From an uncultured Clostridia bacterium (lineage in GTDB: Bacteria; Bacillota_A; Clostridia; Oscillospirales; Oscillospiraceae): DNA of 7,197 nucleotides. Each line of letters opens with the position of its first letter. The first letter of the stretch is position 1. This document shows positions 218 to 7,145 of the stretch, one piece after another. Where the stretch lies: the NCBI GenBank assembly GCA_946059285.1, contig CAMGMW010000058.1, forward strand, positions 1-7,197, written 5' to 3'. The notes beneath the pieces were generated by a model. The model searched no databases. It saw only the letters and a program-made list of their open reading frames with translations, and had not been told where the DNA came from. The translations under genes were made by a program, and so were the position numbers.

Positions 218-1336
218 TTATTTCCCGATGGAGTTGGCGACCAGTACCTGATATTGGTCATCCGTTAGCTGACAGTGATAAAACAGAGAGAAATACTCCG
301 AGACCTCCTCCTGCAAGTCATAGGTGGCTTCCTCCAGATAGAGCAGCTTTGCCAACCAAAGCATGCCGAGATAACGTTGCACAGAGGGAGGGAAGCCCAT
401 CCAGTTATAGGGACCAAAGGGAACTTCATAATAGTGTCCTGTCTGGATGGCGGTCATCTGCTGCCATACGGCATCCTCACCGACCGTGTCATAAATACTG
501 TCCGGTGCGAAAAGAATCACATCCGGATTCCACAGGAGAAGCTGCTCCATGTCAACCTCATTACCGGTTCCCTTCGAGGACGGCGATTCAACCACTGCCT
601 GGTTTTCTGAAAGCAGGTCAATGATTTCTGAGTGATAAGAGTCACGCGCAATGACGTTCAGTCCTGCGTCACCCAGCACATACAGCAGGCGAACTTTTTC
701 GACTTTTTCGGCGATTTCCTGCGCTAATGCGTATTTTTCCTCACAATAAGAAGCCAGAATTTCGGCTTCTTCTTCCATATTCAGCAGCTTGCCCAGCATC
801 CGGTAGGCATCACCGGCAGTCTTTGTGGTGCAGGTGATATGAACGAAGGGGATACCGGTCTGCTCCTGCAAAGCATCCAGATCTTCTACGACGCTGTCCT
901 TTGGCTCACCTAAATCGATTACGACTTCGGCACCGGAGGCAAGCAGCGTTTCAAGATTCAATTCTCCCTTTCCTCCATAGAGCTGACCCAGCAGAGGGAG
1001 ATTATAATACGCCGTGTCCAGATATTCCTCTGCGCTTGCATCCCATTCGCTGGCAATGCCAACCAGTCGATCGGGGCACAATGCAAACAGAACAATCTGC
1101 GCCAGAGGACCGGAAACTGCTACCTTTGTGATATTTGCGGGAAGCTCGACCTCACGCCCAACGGAGTCGGTAAAAACAACATTGGCTGCCGTAGGATCGG
1201 AAGACGGCTCTTCCACGGAAGAATCGCTTCCGGAGGACATCTGAGGTTCGGATGGGTTGTCGGGCGTACTGTCTTTGCAGGCGGTGAAGCTCAGAAGGAG
1301 GGCTAACGCCAGCAACGCGCATAGAATTCTCTTCAT
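218..1336 (-). CDS. FecB/BtuF-type ABC transporter solute-binding lipoprotein
   Basis: This is the extracellular substrate-capture subunit of the FecCD-type importer encoded just upstream; 372 aa. I place the start at 1336 (MKRILCALLA), not at the in-frame ATG 33 nt upstream (1369), because AAAGGGAG sits at the right distance before it and the signal peptide then begins cleanly. Residues 1-19 form a lipoprotein signal peptide ending FTA-C, with the lipidated Cys at 20. A Ser/Pro/Glu-rich linker follows (21-50). The Fe/B12 periplasmic-binding fold (PF01497-like) starts at VVFTDSVGREVELP (53-66). LNLETLLASGAEVVIDLG (127-143) and LLLWNPDVILF (266-276) are typical lobe strands, and the C-terminal lobe holds GPYNWMGFPPSVQRYLG (308-324). 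It is the last gene of the operon, 47 nt after the ATPase gene. Sequence alone would suggest iron-siderophore, haem or cobalamin binding. The riboswitch-like leader instead points to molybdate or tungstate (compare MolA of Haemophilus). The family call is firm; the substrate is inferred. Confidence 0.9.
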   Translation of the reverse strand: MKRILCALLALALLLSFTACKDSTPDNPSEPQMSSGSDSSVEEPSSDPTAANVVFTDSVGREVELPANITKVAVSGPLAQIVLFALCPDRLVGIASEWDASAEEYLDTAYYNLPLLGQLYGGKGELNLETLLASGAEVVIDLGEPKDSVVEDLDALQEQTGIPFVHITCTTKTAGDAYRMLGKLLNMEEEAEILASYCEEKYALAQEIAEKVEKVRLLYVLGDAGLNVIARDSYHSEIIDLLSENQAVVESPSSKGTGNEVDMEQLLLWNPDVILFAPDSIYDTVGEDAVWQQMTAIQTGHYYEVPFGPYNWMGFPPSVQRYLGMLWLAKLLYLEEATYDLQEEVSEYFSLFYHCQLTDDQYQVLVANSIGK

Positions 1337-2157: not shown

Positions 2158-3167
2158 CAGCGCAGTCCCTCCTTTCGCAGCATCAGATACAGGAAGAATG
2201 GAGCACCTACAAAGGCAGTAAGAATCCCAATGGGAATTTCCGTGGCAATCAGATTGCGAGAGATATTGTCAGTCAGCAGGAGAAATGCGGAGCCTGCCAA
2301 CATAGAAGCGGGCATCAAAACTTTAAAGTTGCTGCCAACCAGTTTTCGGCACAGGTGCGGGATCACCAGTCCCACCCAGCCGATCATGCCCGCCACGGAA
2401 ATTGACGCTGCAGTAACCAGAGAAGCGCACAGGACCACGCCGAGCCGCAGATGTCCGGCATGGACGCCCATCGTCCGTGCCTCATCGTCGCCAAGCGTGA
2501 GCAGATTAATCTTCCAGCGCAGCAGGAAGAGCGGGATCAGACCCAGCAGCATCGCGGGAAGGATATGCACAACCTTATCCAAACGCATGCCGCTAAGACT
2601 GCCCATCAGCCAGTAGGTGATGGCGGGAAGCTGATTGGTTGGATCGGCAACCAACTTAATATAAGAGGTTGCCGCATTGAACAGAGAGCTGATGACCATG
2701 CCCGCAAGCACCAGATTCAGGACCCGTTTTCCCTGCGCACGCTGCGCCACCAGATATACCAGTGCAACCGTAAGAAGGGAGACGAAAAAAGAAATCAGTG
2801 TAATGCCCGCGGTGCTGAATCCAAGCAAAATTGCCAGCGCGGCGCCGAAAGCGGCACCGGAGGAGGCACCCAAAATGTCAGGAGATGCCATGGGGTTTTG
2901 AAATACGCCCTGATATGCGGCTCCGGCAGAGGATAGGCAGCAGCCAACGAGGCAAGCCATCAAAATGCGAGGCAGGCGGATATTGATCACTGCGGTAGTC
3001 ATAGCAGGATCCCAGTTTTCCTCTATCGGAAAAATACGGGACAGAAGGATACGACAGGTCGTTAGAATATCAACACCGTAGCGCCCGATATAAAACGATC
3101 CTAAAAACAGTGCCAAAAGAATGCCGCCCAATAAGAGCAGAACTGCCCGGCTTTTTTTCGGATTCAA
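2157..3167 (-). CDS. FecCD-family ABC transporter permease
   Basis: This is the membrane subunit of a type II ABC importer; 336 aa, rich in hydrophobic helices, with about ten expected by homology to BtuC. The signature GAAYQGVFQNPMASPDILGA (82-101) is typical of FecCD permeases. The loop LGDDEARTMGV (about 225-235) matches the region that contacts the ATPase, and GMIGWVGLVIPHLCRKLVG follows at about 260-280. The start is a TTG at 3165-3167, supported by AAGGAGGGA ending 6 nt upstream; no better in-frame ATG is seen. It is the first gene of a permease-ATPase-binding protein operon. It lies directly behind the leader with the promoter, the riboswitch-like RNA and the terminator, so the whole importer should be under that control. 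Known substrates of the family are ferric siderophores, haem and cobalamin, plus molybdate/tungstate for MolB. The leader favours the last of these, by inference. Confidence 0.93.
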   Translation of the reverse strand: MNPKKSRAVLLLLGGILLALFLGSFYIGRYGVDILTTCRILLSRIFPIEENWDPAMTTAVINIRLPRILMACLVGCCLSSAGAAYQGVFQNPMASPDILGASSGAAFGAALAILLGFSTAGITLISFFVSLLTVALVYLVAQRAQGKRVLNLVLAGMVISSLFNAATSYIKLVADPTNQLPAITYWLMGSLSGMRLDKVVHILPAMLLGLIPLFLLRWKINLLTLGDDEARTMGVHAGHLRLGVVLCASLVTAASISVAGMIGWVGLVIPHLCRKLVGSNFKVLMPASMLAGSAFLLLTDNISRNLIATEIPIGILTAFVGAPFFLYLMLRKEGLR

Positions 3168-3196: not shown

Positions 3197-3233
3197 AATA
3201 AAAAGCGTGTGCTGCGAGAAAGACAGCACACGC
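3197..3233 (-). terminator. intrinsic terminator in the leader, upstream of the permease gene
   Basis: A perfect 10-bp stem GCGTGTGCTG (3233-3224) / CAGCACACGC (3214-3205) encloses a 9-nt loop and is followed at once by TTTTTATT (3204-3197). The direction is minus, the same as the importer genes. It sits between a promoter (about 3393-3421) and the first gene (3167). A terminator in this position is the hallmark of a transcription-attenuating leader. It may also stop read-through from argDF and the dtxR-like gene, since no other terminator separates them from the importer. Confidence 0.88.
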
Positions 3234-3280
3234 AATGGACGGAAACAACCCGCCCCAAAGCAGCTTCCTTCTCAAACACG
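3206..3280 (-). promoter_or_regulatory. candidate antiterminator pairing between aptamer core and terminator
   Basis: CGTGT (3280-3276) is complementary to ACACG (3210-3206). GAGAAGGA (3273-3266) is complementary to TCTTTCTC (3223-3216) with one G-U pair. Together they make a 13-bp helix with a 2x5 internal loop. It would break both the CTTCC/GGAAG stem of the aptamer and the 3' arm of the terminator, so the two folds exclude each other. This predicts that ligand-bound aptamer leads to termination and free aptamer to read-through, the expected logic for an uptake system. Complementarity is seen; the switching mechanism is inferred. Confidence 0.55.
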
Positions 3281-3356
3281 GAAGGCATTGCCGTTTCCGG
3301 CAACACCCTTTACGCCGAAGCGCAGGTCTGTTATCCATGGGAGAACCGTTAGGAAC
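3256..3356 (-). ncRNA. Moco (molybdenum cofactor) riboswitch-like aptamer
   Basis: Reading the minus strand from 3356 down, the leader first shows CCTAAC (3353-3348) facing CATGG (3339-3335), resembling an 11-nt GAAA-tetraloop receptor. Then comes a hairpin CGC-TTCG-GCG (3322-3313), flanked by CCT (3326-3324) that can pair with AGG (3309-3307). Next is TTGCCG-GAAA-CGGCAA (3303-3288), a perfect 6-bp stem with a GNRA loop. Last is the core GCCTTCCGTGTTTGAGAAGG, in which CTTCC (3284-3280) pairs with GGAAG (3268-3264). From memory, this order and the CCTxCCGTGTTTG core match the Moco RNA motif, which controls molybdenum cofactor synthesis and molybdate/tungstate uptake genes. Variants lacking one hairpin have been proposed to sense the tungsten cofactor; the GNRA-capped stem here would favour Moco. 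I could not assign the outer closing stem with confidence. Cobalamin riboswitch hallmarks are absent. Confidence 0.7.
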
Positions 3357-3377
3357 ACAGACTCGGAAACACGGTAT

Positions 3378-3389
3378 TGTATTGATACA
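3378..3389. promoter_or_regulatory. palindrome at the predicted transcription start of the importer operon
   Basis: TGTATTGATACA is a perfect 5-bp inverted repeat with a 2-bp centre. It lies 3 bp downstream of the TATACT box, so it overlaps the predicted start site, a normal place for a repressor to bind. The DtxR-like gene ends only about 35 bp away and is an obvious candidate. However, the sequence does not resemble the classical DtxR or MntR boxes as I recall them. Confidence 0.3.
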
Positions 3390-3392
3390 CAC

Positions 3393-3421
3393 AGTATATC
3401 GTTATTCTTCTAAAAAATCAA
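3393..3421 (-). promoter_or_regulatory. sigma-70/SigA-type promoter of the importer operon leader
   Basis: On the minus strand TTGATT (3421-3416) and TATACT (3398-3393) are separated by exactly 17 nt. The predicted start is near 3386, giving a leader of about 220 nt before the permease TTG. The -35 box begins 4 nt after the stop codon of the dtxR-like gene, so the importer has its own promoter even though all genes run the same way. Confidence 0.72.
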
Positions 3422-3424
3422 CGG

Positions 3425-3808
3425 CTATTCGTTCGACGACCGCGAATGATTGGCAGCGTACGACTTGATCGCGTCAAAGCTTTCTGCACTGATCACGTGC
3501 TCAATACGGCAAGCGTCCTCCGCAGCAACGGCAGGATCCACGCCGAGGGCGGTCAGCCAGTTTGTTAGCAGGGTGTGGCGTTCCAGAATGCGCTCAGCAA
3601 TCTCGAAACCCGCCGGGAGCAGGGTGATAAAGCCGTTGCCGTCTACCTGAATGTAGCCGTTTTCCCGCAGATTGCGCATTGCAATGCTGACGCTCGGCTT
3701 CGAAAACTCCAGTTCGTTTGCGATATCAATGGAACGGACCGCGCCGGTTCGCCGATAGAGGATCAGAATTGTCTCCAAGTAGTTTTCTGCAGATTCCTGT
3801 ATTTTCAT
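3425..3808 (-). CDS. short DtxR/MntR-family metal-dependent transcriptional repressor
   Basis: 127 aa, comparable to MntR (about 140 aa) and lacking the C-terminal SH3-like domain of DtxR/IdeR. Residues 5-70 form the winged helix (IANELEFSKPSVSIAMRNL recognition region, 29-47), and 71-120 the metal-binding dimerisation region. Aligned by eye, the metal site is Asn9 and Glu12 in ENYLE, His78 in ERHTLL, then Cys100, Glu103 and His104 in EDACRIEH. The Cys-x-x-Glu-His pattern matches site 2 of DtxR, whereas MntR has Glu at the Cys position. Residues of the second DtxR site (Glu83 and His98 equivalents) are not visible. Metal identity, iron or manganese, is therefore uncertain. The ATG at 3808 has AGAAGGA about 9 nt upstream. 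It lies 33 nt after argF and may share its transcript. The importer promoter starts at its stop codon, making that operon a plausible target. Confidence 0.87.
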   Translation of the reverse strand: MKIQESAENYLETILILYRRTGAVRSIDIANELEFSKPSVSIAMRNLRENGYIQVDGNGFITLLPAGFEIAERILERHTLLTNWLTALGVDPAVAAEDACRIEHVISAESFDAIKSYAANHSRSSNE

Positions 3809-3841
3809 GACGGACCATCCTTCTGTCTGCCCACAAGATGC

Positions 3842-4825
3842 TTATAGTGTGGCGGCCAGGACTGCCTTGATGGTGTGCATGCGGTTTTCTGCTTCATCAA
3901 AAACAATGGACTGCTTGCTTTCAAATACGTCATCGGTGACTTCCAGCGCTTCGAGTTGGAATTTTTCGCCGATCTGCTTGCCGATACCGGTTTTAAGATC
4001 ATGAAATGCAGGCAGGCAGTGCATGAAAACAGCATGATCCCCGGCGTTTGCCATGAGTTTGGCATTGACCTGATAGGGGAGCATCTTTTTAAGACGGGCT
4101 TCCCATGCCTCCATCGGCTCACCCATGGAAACCCAGACGTCGGTGTAGATCACATCGGCGCCTTCCGTAGCTTTCATTGGGTCTGTCTCAAAGGAAAGGG
4201 TAGCGCCGGTTTCTGCGGCGACAGCTTCGCAGCGGGCGACTAACGCGGGATCGGGGAAGAAGCCTTCCGGTCCGCAGGCGACAAAATGCAGACCGAGCTT
4301 TGCGCAGCCGATCATCAGCGAATTTGCCATATTAGAGCGGCAATCGCCCATAAATACCAGCTTTTTCCCCTTGAGTGTACCGAAATGTTCCCGGATGGTC
4401 AGCATATCGGCAAGAATCTGCGTCGGATGGTATTCGTTGGTCAAGCCGTTCCAGACCGGGACACCGGCATATTTTGCCAATTCCTCCACGATGCTCTGAC
4501 CGAAGCCACGGTACTCGATGCCGTCATATAACCGCCCCAGCACGCGGGCCGTATCGGCGATGGATTCTTTTTTGCCGATCTGTGAACCGGTGGGGTCGAG
4601 ATAGGTCACATGCATACCCAGATCGTAGGCAGCGACCTCAAAAGAGCAGCGGGTGCGGGTTGAGGTTTTTTCAAAAATCAGCGCAATGGTTTTGCCTCGG
4701 TAGTCATCGTGAGGAATGCCGGATTTTTTCTTTGCCTTTAACTCTGCCGCCAAATCGATCAGTCCGGTGATTTCCTCCGGGGTGAAGTCCAGCAGCGTCA
4801 AGAAATTTCTGCCCTTCAGATTCAT
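3842..4825 (-). CDS. argF: ornithine carbamoyltransferase
   Basis: Cytoplasmic enzyme that transfers the carbamoyl group of carbamoyl phosphate to ornithine, giving citrulline in arginine synthesis; 327 aa, the usual length. I chose the ATG at 4825 ([11 protein letters not shown]), not the in-frame ATG at 4852, because AAGGAGGA ends 6-7 nt before it. Motifs: the carbamoyl-phosphate loop STRTR (55-59), HPTQ (133-136), the ornithine-binding DVWVSMG (229-235) and HCLP (269-272) with the conserved Cys270. The SMG and HCLP motifs separate it from aspartate carbamoyltransferase. Its binding site overlaps the stop of argD, with an 11-nt gap between genes, so the two form one transcription unit. The pairing with argD argues for the biosynthetic role over the catabolic arginine deiminase pathway. 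No ARG box was recognised. Confidence 0.96.
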
Positions 4826-4836
4826 GTTGTTCCTCC

Positions 4837-6000
4837 TTATTCGGCCGCGCACTGCTGTAATACAGTCACTGCGGTTTTTAACAGCTCCATGGGGATATTC
4901 AGCGCAGGCAAAAGACGGACCTTTTGCTTTGCGGTGGTGACCAGTACACCGAGGGAAAGCGCTTTTTCCGCAAATTCCCGCGAAGGAAGTGCGGTTTCCA
5001 GACCCAGCATCAGACCCATGCCGGTGACGCTGCGGATCCCGGGGACGCCGGAGAGGGCGTCGAATATGTAAGCGGAGCGTTCACGCACACCCGCAAGCAG
5101 CGCGTCATCAATCCGGCTGAGGATATTGACGCCGCCGGCACAGCACACCGGGTTCCCGCCGAATGTGGAACCGTGACTGCCGGGCTGCAAAACGTCTGCA
5201 ACGCGGCGAGAGAACATCGTTGCACCGATGGGAAGCCCGCCGCCCAGCCCCTTTGCGGTGGTGACAATGTCCGGCATAAGACCATATTCCATGTAACCGT
5301 AAAGCCGACCGCTGCGCCCATTGCCGAGCTGCACCTCGTCAGCAATCAAAAGCAACACGTATTTCTTTGCCAGCAGAGCGAGCGCATCGGCAAACTCTTT
5401 CCCAATGGGCATGATCCCGCCTTCACCCTGCACAGCTTCAAACATAATTGCGGCGCAGGGATGGGTTTGAATCAGTTTTTCCAGAGCGTCCGCATCACCT
5501 GCCGGCGCGTACAGAAAGCCGCCGGGAAGCGGTTGATAATCCTGATGAAATACATCCTGTCCGGTTGCCGCCAGTGTCGCCAGAGTGCGCCCGTGAAAGC
5601 TGTTTTTCAGCGTGATGATATTGCAGTATTCCGCACCCTTGTGCGTCGCGCCCCATTTTCTTGCCGTCTTGATGGCACACTCGTTGGCTTCCGCGCCGGA
5701 ATTGGAGAAAAAGACGCGTTCCATACCCGTACGCTCGCAGAGCATTTGCGCCAGCGCCACGGTGGGCTCTGAATAGTAAAGATTAGATGTGTGCTGAAAT
5801 CTCTCAAGCTGCCGAACGACCGCTTCACGCCAGGGCTTGTCATTCAAACCGAAAATATTGACGGCAATGCCGCTGCCAAGGTCAATGTATTCCTTGCCGT
5901 CACCGCCGTAAACGACCGAACCGTTGCCGCCGGTGACCTCCAACGGGAAGCGTTGGTAGGTATGGGCAATATAGCGGCTGTCAAGCTCTTGAATAGACAT
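4837..6000 (-). CDS. argD: acetylornithine aminotransferase (class III, PLP-dependent)
   Basis: Cytoplasmic enzyme converting N-acetylglutamate semialdehyde to N-acetylornithine with glutamate as amino donor, one step before ornithine is released for ArgF. I chose the ATG at 6000 ([19 protein letters not shown]), giving 387 aa, because GGAGG lies 8 nt before it; the frame stays open to an ATG at 6045 with no better site. Seen motifs: SNSGAEANE (99-107) for cofactor phosphate binding, FHGRT (135-139), the PLP-ring Asp221 in DEVQ (221-224), the Schiff-base Lys250 in TTAKGLGGG, and GSTFGGNP (277-284). The stretch after DEVQ is LGNGRSG where most family members have TGxGRTG, a mild change. Ornithine and succinylornithine aminotransferases are close relatives; adjacency to argF favours ArgD. 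The other arginine genes (argC, argJ, argB) are not in this window. Confidence 0.94.
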
Positions 6001-6022
6001 GGTTTCCGCCTCCGGTATGTAT

Positions 6023-6043
6023 GCTCCCCGCAGCCGGGAGAGC
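6023..6043 (-). other. GC-rich hairpin in the argD 5' leader
   Basis: GCTCTCC and GGGGAGC form a 7-bp stem (one G-U pair) around a 7-nt loop, just upstream of the argD Shine-Dalgarno sequence. There is no T run, so it is not an intrinsic terminator. It could influence translation of argD or simply stabilise the message. Confidence 0.35.
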
Positions 6044-6059
6044 ATTGGTATTTTGCACT

Positions 6060-6088
6060 ATTATACATCGAAAGCCGTCTAAATGCAA
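6060..6088 (-). promoter_or_regulatory. promoter for the argDF operon
   Basis: A perfect TATAAT (6065-6060) lies 17 nt from a weak TTGCAT (6088-6083) on the minus strand, with a TG directly before the -10 box. The -35 box is inside the end of the DUF4363 gene and the predicted start is near 6053, giving a leader of about 53 nt. This separates argDF from the two membrane-protein genes upstream. I saw no ArgR/AhrC-type palindrome nearby. Confidence 0.6.
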
Positions 6089-6471
6089 GCCATAAGGAAA
6101 TTGTAGTAAAAAGGAATGTCCATTTCGGTGATGTGCTCCAGCCGCAAGAGCAATTCCTCACATCGGCAGCGGAATTCCTCCTGCGTTTGCGTTGCGGCAT
6201 AGGACTGCAGGTCGGAGAAAGCAACCGCGATCTCGTCAAGCTCTTCGTGACTGAAGATGGAGCTGAGGAATCCGGCGTGACGCTCCCAGGCCCTCTTTGC
6301 CTGCGCAGCCTTTTTTACGGCGGCGTTAAAATCGCCTTCGTCATGCAGGGAAACGGCGGCTTTCAGCGGATCGATGCTTTCCTGAATGCCGCGTGCGGAG
6401 AAAATGCCGCAGAAAATGCATACAGCGAGCAAAACGGCGAGGATACCGCAGCCGATATACAGATATTTCAC
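6079..6471 (-). CDS. DUF4363-family membrane-anchored protein
   Basis: 130 aa of unknown function. It has one N-terminal membrane helix (about 3-24), then a mostly helical, charged domain that is predicted to be extracytoplasmic. The pattern W62, HEELDE (75-80) and LRLEHI (109-114), together with size and context, matches DUF4363. The start is GTG (6469-6471), supported by AAGGAGGA about 6 nt upstream. GTGA overlaps the stop of the DUF421 gene by 4 nt, so translation of the two is coupled. DUF421 and DUF4363 genes are often neighbours in Clostridia, which implies that the products act together at the membrane. Confidence 0.82.
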   Translation of the reverse strand: MKYLYIGCGILAVLLAVCIFCGIFSARGIQESIDPLKAAVSLHDEGDFNAAVKKAAQAKRAWERHAGFLSSIFSHEELDEIAVAFSDLQSYAATQTQEEFRCRCEELLLRLEHITEMDIPFYYNFLMACI

Positions 6472-7145
6472 TTCATGTCCTCCTTGCGGATGAGATAGAT
6501 TTTTCCGCTTGCATCCACGGTCATCAGCAGGACTTTTTGAATGGAACAGGCGCGCTTTTTTAATTCATCTTCCAGCCATGCCATGTCACGCCCCGCAACT
6601 GCGAGATTTTCGCGCATCAGATGACCGGAGGAAATCAGTGTGACCGGGAGCGCGGCATCCGGCACATGGACACCGGCGTCCTTTGCGGAGGCGGGGAGAT
6701 TTTTACTGTACAGCAGGGTGGAAAGCTGCCCGTTTGTCTCCAGAATAGCATATTTGACTGTGGTTAAGTCAAAAATATCCTTTTCCCGCAGGTGCATCGT
6801 CAGCTCGTCCAGATTGACTCTGGTACTTCGCAGGTTCTTTTCAATGATCTTGCCGTTTTCCATCAGAATGATCGGCTTGCCGCAAAAAAACTGCCGCAGG
6901 CGAATGGAGCGCAGAGTCAAAACTGCAAGCACCAGCTCGATTCCCAGAATCACGAGGATAGGAACCAGACCGGACAGCAGCGGGATTGCCGTATCTTGCA
7001 TGGGAATGGCCGCCAGATTGGCGATCAGCATTGTAACGACGCACTCCGCCGGTTCCATTTCACCGATCTGGCGTTTGCCCATCAGACGCACCGTCAGCAC
7101 TAAAACGATATATAATAATAGTGTTCTTAAAAACGAAATCAACAT
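6468..7145 (-). CDS. DUF421 (YetF/YdfS-like) integral membrane protein
   Basis: 225 aa. The N-terminal part has about three membrane helices (about 3-20, 36-52, 58-78) and the family hallmark RLMGKRQIGEMEPAE (20-34) between the first two. A cytoplasmic DUF421 domain follows: FFCGKPIILMENGKI (86-100), then RVNLDELTMHLREKDIFDL (109-127) and KYAILETNGQLSTLLY (131-146). A second similar fold covers the C-terminal third (VTLISSGHLMRENL, 168-181). Bacillus subtilis has several paralogues (YetF, YdfS, YkjA, YrbG), and their molecular role is not established. The ATG at 7145 has AGAGGTG about 8 nt upstream. It is the first gene of the pair with DUF4363, and no genes are visible before it in the window. 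Confidence 0.88.
   Translation of the reverse strand: MLISFLRTLLLYIVLVLTVRLMGKRQIGEMEPAECVVTMLIANLAAIPMQDTAIPLLSGLVPILVILGIELVLAVLTLRSIRLRQFFCGKPIILMENGKIIEKNLRSTRVNLDELTMHLREKDIFDLTTVKYAILETNGQLSTLLYSKNLPASAKDAGVHVPDAALPVTLISSGHLMRENLAVAGRDMAWLEDELKKRACSIQKVLLMTVDASGKIYLIRKEDMK

Follow-up and report, generated by a model that had tools for sequence, protein, structure and literature searches.

A Moco riboswitch precedes a type II ABC importer in Clostridia, a candidate system for salvage of the molybdenum cofactor

Introduction

What does an ATP-binding cassette (ABC) importer carry when its leader RNA belongs to the riboswitch class of the molybdenum cofactor (Moco)? This question is raised by a 7,197-nucleotide stretch of DNA from an uncultured bacterium of the Clostridia (contig CAMGMW010000058.1; referred to here, at its full length, as the window), in which a Moco riboswitch lies in front of an operon for a FecCD-type importer. 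The original prediction for this locus, made from the letters of the DNA, had read the operon as an importer of molybdate or tungstate under cofactor feedback; its riboswitch and its importer have held up, molybdate has become doubtful as a substrate, and the case for tungstate is weakened. We favor, with a rough probability of 55%, a cofactor-salvage importer whose production is under feedback from its own cargo, be it Moco itself or a nucleotide form of it.

The riboswitch class, the rule that connects its P3 stem with molybdenum, and its link to molybdate transporters are already known. Moco RNAs have been described near cofactor-synthesis genes and a molybdate transporter of the major facilitator superfamily (excerpts of PMC6239172 and PMC5317091), and the view stated in an excerpt of PMC9793310 is that Moco must be made by cells, with C. 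elegans as an apparent exception. Neither a bacterial Moco importer nor a Moco RNA in front of FecCD importers was found in the openly licensed (CC0/CC BY/CC BY-SA) literature, an absence that is unproven. Our classification goes no further than a Moco riboswitch, on the basis of a covariance model, and a type II importer, on the basis of its family; neither a MolBCA system nor a Moco importer is claimed as proven.

The Leader RNA and its Predicted Switch

The Rfam model of the Moco RNA motif (RF01055) matches the leader over its full length (model positions 1-135 of 135) at 74.2 bits, above its gathering score of 36 (E 5.2e-17; coordinates are collected in Table 1). No further Rfam family attains its gathering threshold anywhere in the window, and assignment to the cobalamin class or to any other riboswitch was rejected for this reason. 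Inside the match lie a P3 stem in the form of a 5-bp hairpin capped by UUCG (seen in the RF01055 alignment and in the fold), a GAAA-capped hairpin, a CCUAAC/CAUGG receptor, and the core GCCUUCCGUGUUUG. The original prediction had named all of these elements, together with a promoter whose boxes TTGATT (3421-3416) and TATACT (3398-3393) are separated by 17 nucleotides on the minus strand, and each was found in its place. The terminator, foreseen as a perfect 10-bp hairpin before the permease, is present with a length of 11 bp (-18.6 kcal/mol) and is followed by TTTTTATT as far as 3197.

In its full-length match, its P3 stem and its terminator-type platform, the leader resembles the RNAs described by Regulski et al. 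2008 (excerpts of PMC2408646), and it shares with the RF01055 class the position upstream of genes tied to molybdenum enzymes. According to the same excerpts, the P3 stem is associated with molybdenum and not with tungsten, which weakens the tungstate part of the prediction. When the nascent leader is folded without the 3' arm of the terminator, the 3' strand of the aptamer (3273-3260) is predicted to pair with the 5' arm and the loop of the terminator (3233-3216), with pairing probabilities of 0.83-0.99 at eight of the 12 arm positions printed. This antiterminator would compete with the terminator hairpin (3233-3205), and the predicted platform would thus be mutually exclusive with the aptamer. 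It is a standard antiterminator layout that fits a ligand-OFF switch and predicts that ligand binding leads to termination.

A Type II Importer without a Reliable Name

Behind the terminator follow, in one operon, a FecCD permease, an ABC ATPase and a lipoprotein of the Peripla_BP_2 family, all above the Pfam cut-offs; the three components of a type II (FecCD/BtuCD) ABC importer are therefore in place downstream of the leader. The binding protein matches PF01497 only, and neither the ModA (SBP_bac_11) nor the TupA (PBP_like_2) family; judged by this protein, the system does not belong to ModABC, WtpABC or TupABC. In its FecCD-type target the locus differs from the RF01055 class, for which the transporters mentioned in excerpts of PMC2408646 are modABC and tup/wtp, with no mention of FecCD.

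The NCBIfam labels that the importer attracts (heme, B12, siderophore, F420-0) all stay below their curated cut-offs, and the permease scores 242.7 bits with the BtuC model, short of the 461 set for a vitamin B12 importer. Automatic names would therefore be guesses, and the earlier warning that homology would mislabel the operon as iron or B12 uptake proved apt for the iron, B12 and heme labels alike. BtuCDF and the putative F420-0 importer (NCBIfam TIGR03868/69/73) are of the same importer class, which is used, or predicted to be used, for whole cofactors or their precursors; the window differs from them through its scores below the curated cut-offs and through a Moco instead of a cobalamin riboswitch.

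Members of this class may also carry an oxyanion. A type II importer for molybdate is known in Haemophilus (excerpts of PMC4031551 and PMC7759655), its binding protein MolA from H. influenzae binds both molybdate and tungstate (PMC4031551, in excerpt), and molybdate transporters are known downstream of Moco RNAs (PMC2408646, likewise in excerpt). These precedents speak for a molybdate importer of the MolBCA type, in which the binding protein would take molybdate and the riboswitch would provide end-product feedback, a reading that is doubtful but forms the main rival to salvage. The AlphaFold model of the window's binding protein has a sound fold (pLDDT, the predicted local distance difference test, 87.7) and MolA is a fold relative of it, but the similarity in sequence is weak (E 3.4e-11) and ranks behind that to the structures 4pag, 4ovk and 2etv. 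With about 20% identity, the homology to MolBCA (PDB 3psa/3psh, 2nq2) is distant. One of these entries, 4pag, is a binding protein from Sulfurospirillum deleyianum whose title names no substrate. Unlike MolBCA, the importer of the window stands under a riboswitch, and its relatives are tied to genes for XdhC, an NTPase and a methyltransferase.

Recurrence in Related Loci

A scan of genome contigs with a close homolog (P0041) yielded 53 related loci, mostly from Clostridia and also from Spirochaetes, Anaerolineae and Atopobiaceae; the order permease, ATPase, (methyltransferase), binding protein prevails in most of them. Searched with our own covariance model, built from 26 Moco RNAs, nine of the 53 carry a Moco RNA 5' of the orthologous importer: L006 (Flavonifractor plautii ATCC 29863), L014, L018 (two RNAs), L027, L033, L034 (Sporobacter termitidis), L036, L042 and L051. 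The model had been trained on sequences from all of these except L042 and L051, and Rfam independently places all nine above its cut-off; the recurrence of homologous leaders before orthologous importers is thereby borne out. No Moco RNA was found in the other 44 loci, some of which end before the permease (a permease match is present in 46 of the 53). Moco RNA is hence a frequent regulator of this importer but not an invariable one; a quick tree of the binding protein (62 rows) requires at least 10 switches between its presence and absence. The tree row nearest to the window is that of F. plautii, within a supported five-row set (SH-aLRT, an approximate likelihood-ratio test, 96) whose other members are G017, G019 and G021. 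More distant FecCD importers are likewise preceded by a Moco RNA in L123 and L128.

Hairpin-plus-T-run candidates for terminators lie 3' of 12 of the 14 aptamers examined, in a scan that had no shuffle control and returned candidates of varying quality; there is none for the second RNA of L018, and that of L033 falls inside the aptamer. In four terminator loops (window, L027, L036, L051) the motif TTCTC could, judged by eye, pair with GAGAAGG or GAAAAG of the aptamer. Among viral contigs, five pattern matches included no relative.

Several further Moco RNAs were encountered. That of L128 (10807-10691, minus strand) lacks P3, is of the tungsten type by the 2008 rule, and lies upstream of the distant FecCD importer. 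Sporobacter termitidis (G034) has 16 Moco RNA matches, an unusually large Moco regulon for one genome. A second copy of the binding protein (63% to that of the window) follows about 250 bases downstream of a Moco RNA in G030 (L062, 1501-1644, plus strand), and a TupA-like protein (PBP_like_2) follows one in G012 (L065, 1501-1611, plus strand); both are genome bins without MoaA, MoaC and MoeA. In L042 a weak Moco-like RNA (2583-2693, plus strand; 22 bits with our own model, and absent from the Rfam matches at the gathering score) precedes an aldehyde ferredoxin oxidoreductase (AOR) gene (3439-5529, plus strand) near the Moco-RNA importer operon. A second, weak Moco RNA match in F. plautii (27.2 bits, below the cut-off) was left as a chance hit; no molybdenum gene was recognised by eye in its vicinity.

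Molybdoenzymes and Moco Synthesis in Importer Genomes

Fifty of the 53 loci could be tied to whole genomes, most of which are metagenome bins; the window's own genome lies outside this set. The molybdenum domain of xanthine dehydrogenase (XDH)-type enzymes (PF20256) is present in 46 of the 50, and above cut-off in five of 14 control genomes. Molybdopterin oxidoreductases (PF00384, the dimethyl sulfoxide (DMSO)-reductase family) occur in 19 and AOR in 15, and an enzyme of at least one of these three families is found in all importer genomes except G044. The markers of Moco synthesis are far from universal among them (MoaA (PF06463) in 22, MoaC in 20, MoeA_N in 21). In 27 of the 50 genomes MoaA, MoaC and MoeA are jointly absent, and every one of these 27 has XDH. 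Molybdoenzymes without markers of Moco synthesis, a combination expected of hosts of a salvage importer, are seen in relatives of the window's organism only; we infer that this organism resembles them.

Under stricter filters, by which weak matches are lost, RF01055 is present in 12 of the 50 genomes, five of which (G006, G012, G014, G027, G030) belong to the 27 without markers. F. plautii and the genomes of L014 and L027, in which the RNA precedes the importer, depart from the RF01055 class in this lack of Moco-synthesis markers. The four named strains are divided: all three markers are missing from F. plautii and Lachnotalea glycerini but present in Sporobacter and Fusibacter. F. plautii ATCC 29863 has its importer under a Moco RNA, no MoaA, MoaC or MoeA, and strong matches to XdhA (1219 bits; cut-off 780) and to the selenium-dependent XDH (1253 bits; cut-off 830). 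The marker models work in this group, since G017, G019 and G021 give strong matches to MoaA (about 3e-31), MoaC (1e-55 or better) and MoeA (1e-43 or better).

These absences bear directly on the molybdate reading. The 22 genomes with MoaA speak for import of molybdate, but in the 27 without markers, the named F. plautii and L. glycerini included, it would have nowhere to go, as there would be no molybdopterin for it to enter; the molybdate originally proposed as substrate becomes doubtful on this ground. The AOR-type enzymes in 15 of the 50 genomes, and the AOR gene near the importer of L042, would be served by a tungstate importer that supplies tungsten enzymes, but AOR is unmatched in the other 35 and the P3 stem of the window's aptamer is of the molybdenum-associated type (PMC2408646, in excerpt); we consider tungstate very improbable.

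Genes beside the Importer

Counted anywhere in the locus, an XdhC-type gene is present in 26 of the 53 loci (in L009 at 318 bits with NF045664, just below the cut-off of 350), NTPase_1 (PF03266) in 18, and a methyltransferase dependent on S-adenosylmethionine (SAM) in 31. In Lachnotalea the importer lies with XdhC, methyltransferase and NTPase genes and adjoins an aldehyde oxidoreductase cluster; in Sporobacter a MoeA-type domain begins about 90 bases past the binding-protein gene. L143 (G333; 8718-9836, minus strand) has a MocA-like NTP transferase and NTPase_1 in a single open reading frame (ORF), a fusion that suggests a MobB-like role of the NTPase_1 family in cofactor maturation. In L123 (G297) a DMSO-reductase-type enzyme, an Fe-S protein and two other ORFs are followed by the Moco RNA and then by permease, ATPase, binding protein, NTPase and a MobA-like transferase; the enzyme is about 2.5 kb upstream of the riboswitch-controlled importer, and no match to MoaA or MoeA was found in this genome.

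Finished Moco is the substrate on which XdhC, MocA and MobA act, and an imported cofactor would therefore enter at that step. The mere presence of MocA was rejected as an indecisive test (TIGR03310 matches 64 of 65 genomes, one of them over the cut-off, and 14 of 14 controls), and only matches beside XDH or the importer were used. Several neighbours of the importer are late Moco-handling genes, and import of the cofactor would explain them and the missing synthesis better than import of molybdate.

What part the SAM methyltransferase would play in Moco import is not obvious. Together with L143, where a protein with an AIR-synthase domain (SelD by eye) and ORFs resembling, again by eye, accessories of selenium hydroxylases lie by the distant importer, this gene raises the thought that another small molecule for molybdenum hydroxylases (such as a selenium species, a methylated ligand, or a metal complex) is imported and that Moco merely reports demand. 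Such a cargo would leave the source of Moco for XDH in the synthesis-lacking genomes unexplained, and the neighbourhood of L123, with its MobA-like and DMSO-reductase-type proteins, is not selenium-like; we think it unlikely.

An Independent Sample of the Class

The independent sample comprised 293 genomes from the same class, for which a completeness of at least 90% had been requested. An ortholog was called from 329 bits upwards, the next match scoring 185, and MoaA was taken as absent when there was no match at E 0.001. The ortholog is present in six genomes, all of them with XDH, an enzyme found in 59 of the 293 (Fisher p 5e-5). Twelve genomes have XDH without MoaA, and all 12 also lack MoeA; they are the only XDH-positive ones among 219 genomes without MoaA and MoeA, whereas all 27 marker-free importer genomes have XDH. 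Clostridia that have molybdoenzymes but lack cofactor synthesis hence look common (12 of 59 with XDH). MoeA_N on its own is a weak marker, since it is absent in 13 of the 47 genomes with XDH and MoaA, in which another protein may insert molybdenum.

Some of these data weigh against salvage. The ortholog occurs in two of the 12 synthesis-lacking genomes versus four of the 47 with XDH and MoaA and is not enriched in the former; it tracks the enzyme, not the loss of synthesis, which counts against a strict, salvage-only form of the reading. In the same direction point the 22 importer genomes with MoaA and the large share of metagenome bins among the 50. A FecCD permease near the best XDH region, by contrast, was seen in four of the 12 versus one of the 47 (Fisher p 0.005), in a test that followed a look at the 12, considered a single region from each genome (contig ends truncate some of these) and ignored kinship. 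In two more of the 12 (G293, G333) a FecCD importer lies beside MocA or XdhC, an uncontrolled observation; one beside another XDH locus of the MoaA-positive G256 was not counted, and none was seen in four of the 12 within the stretches inspected.

Features of the Window

Table 1. Features of the importer locus in the 7,197-nucleotide window.
Feature	Position	Strand	Basis
Sigma-70-type promoter, TTGATT-17-TATACT	3393..3421	-	sequence, positions checked
Possible operator (putative), inverted repeat TGTATCAATACA just 3' of the -10 box	3378..3389	.	sequence
Moco riboswitch aptamer RF01055, P3 stem and GAAA tetraloop/receptor	3249..3380	-	covariance model
Predicted antiterminator, 5' strand, overlapping the aptamer 3' end	3260..3273	-	nascent-RNA fold prediction, partner 3233-3216
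Intrinsic terminator, 11-bp hairpin 3233-3205 and T-rich tail	3197..3233	-	fold and hairpin scan
FecCD-family (type II) ABC permease, 336 aa	2157..3167	-	PF01032 E 1.2e-88
ABC ATPase, 257 aa	1384..2157	-	PF00005 E 1.4e-29
Lipoprotein solute-binding protein, 372 aa, ATG at 1336	218..1336	-	PF01497 E 8.9e-15 (run on 218-1333) and fold

Immediately upstream of the leader lies a gene for a short MntR/DtxR-like repressor (127 aa; 3425-3808, minus strand), which could, with the inverted repeat, form a second layer of control. No match to this neighbour was seen across the 53 related loci at E 1e-8; it was rejected as a conserved partner and is probably local. The remainder (3842-7145, minus strand) encodes argF, argD, a DUF4363 protein and a YetF/DUF421 protein, ordinary genes in which no link to molybdenum was seen.

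Proposed Model and its Implications

We propose that a Moco-sensing, transcription-terminating OFF riboswitch governs a type II, BtuCD-like ABC importer, the cargo of which would most likely be a metallated pterin cofactor, either Moco itself or one of its nucleotide forms, shed by other gut microbes. At low cellular levels of Moco, the 3' strand of the aptamer would pair with the arm of the terminator, and production of the importer would proceed; with Moco bound, P1 would be held, the terminator would form, and uptake would stop. XdhC, MocA/MobA and a P-loop NTPase, which act late in maturation, would receive the imported Moco, and XDH-type enzymes would be its destination.

The wider notion of a dedicated bacterial Moco salvage, in which FecCD importers under Moco riboswitches let gut anaerobes such as F. 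plautii run their XDHs as Moco auxotrophs, stands in our estimate at about even odds. Such auxotrophs would live on the cofactor shed by their neighbours, in a way similar to B12 auxotrophs. Should the substrate be molybdate after all, the system would still add an importer type that goes uncounted in surveys based on ModA, TupA and WOR, by which a recent gut survey scores molybdenum use (PMC11980592, in excerpt). If salvage is true, Moco would be a shared resource of the gut, molybdoenzymes in genomes without Moco synthesis would be explained, and the way in which genome surveys call molybdenum use would change.
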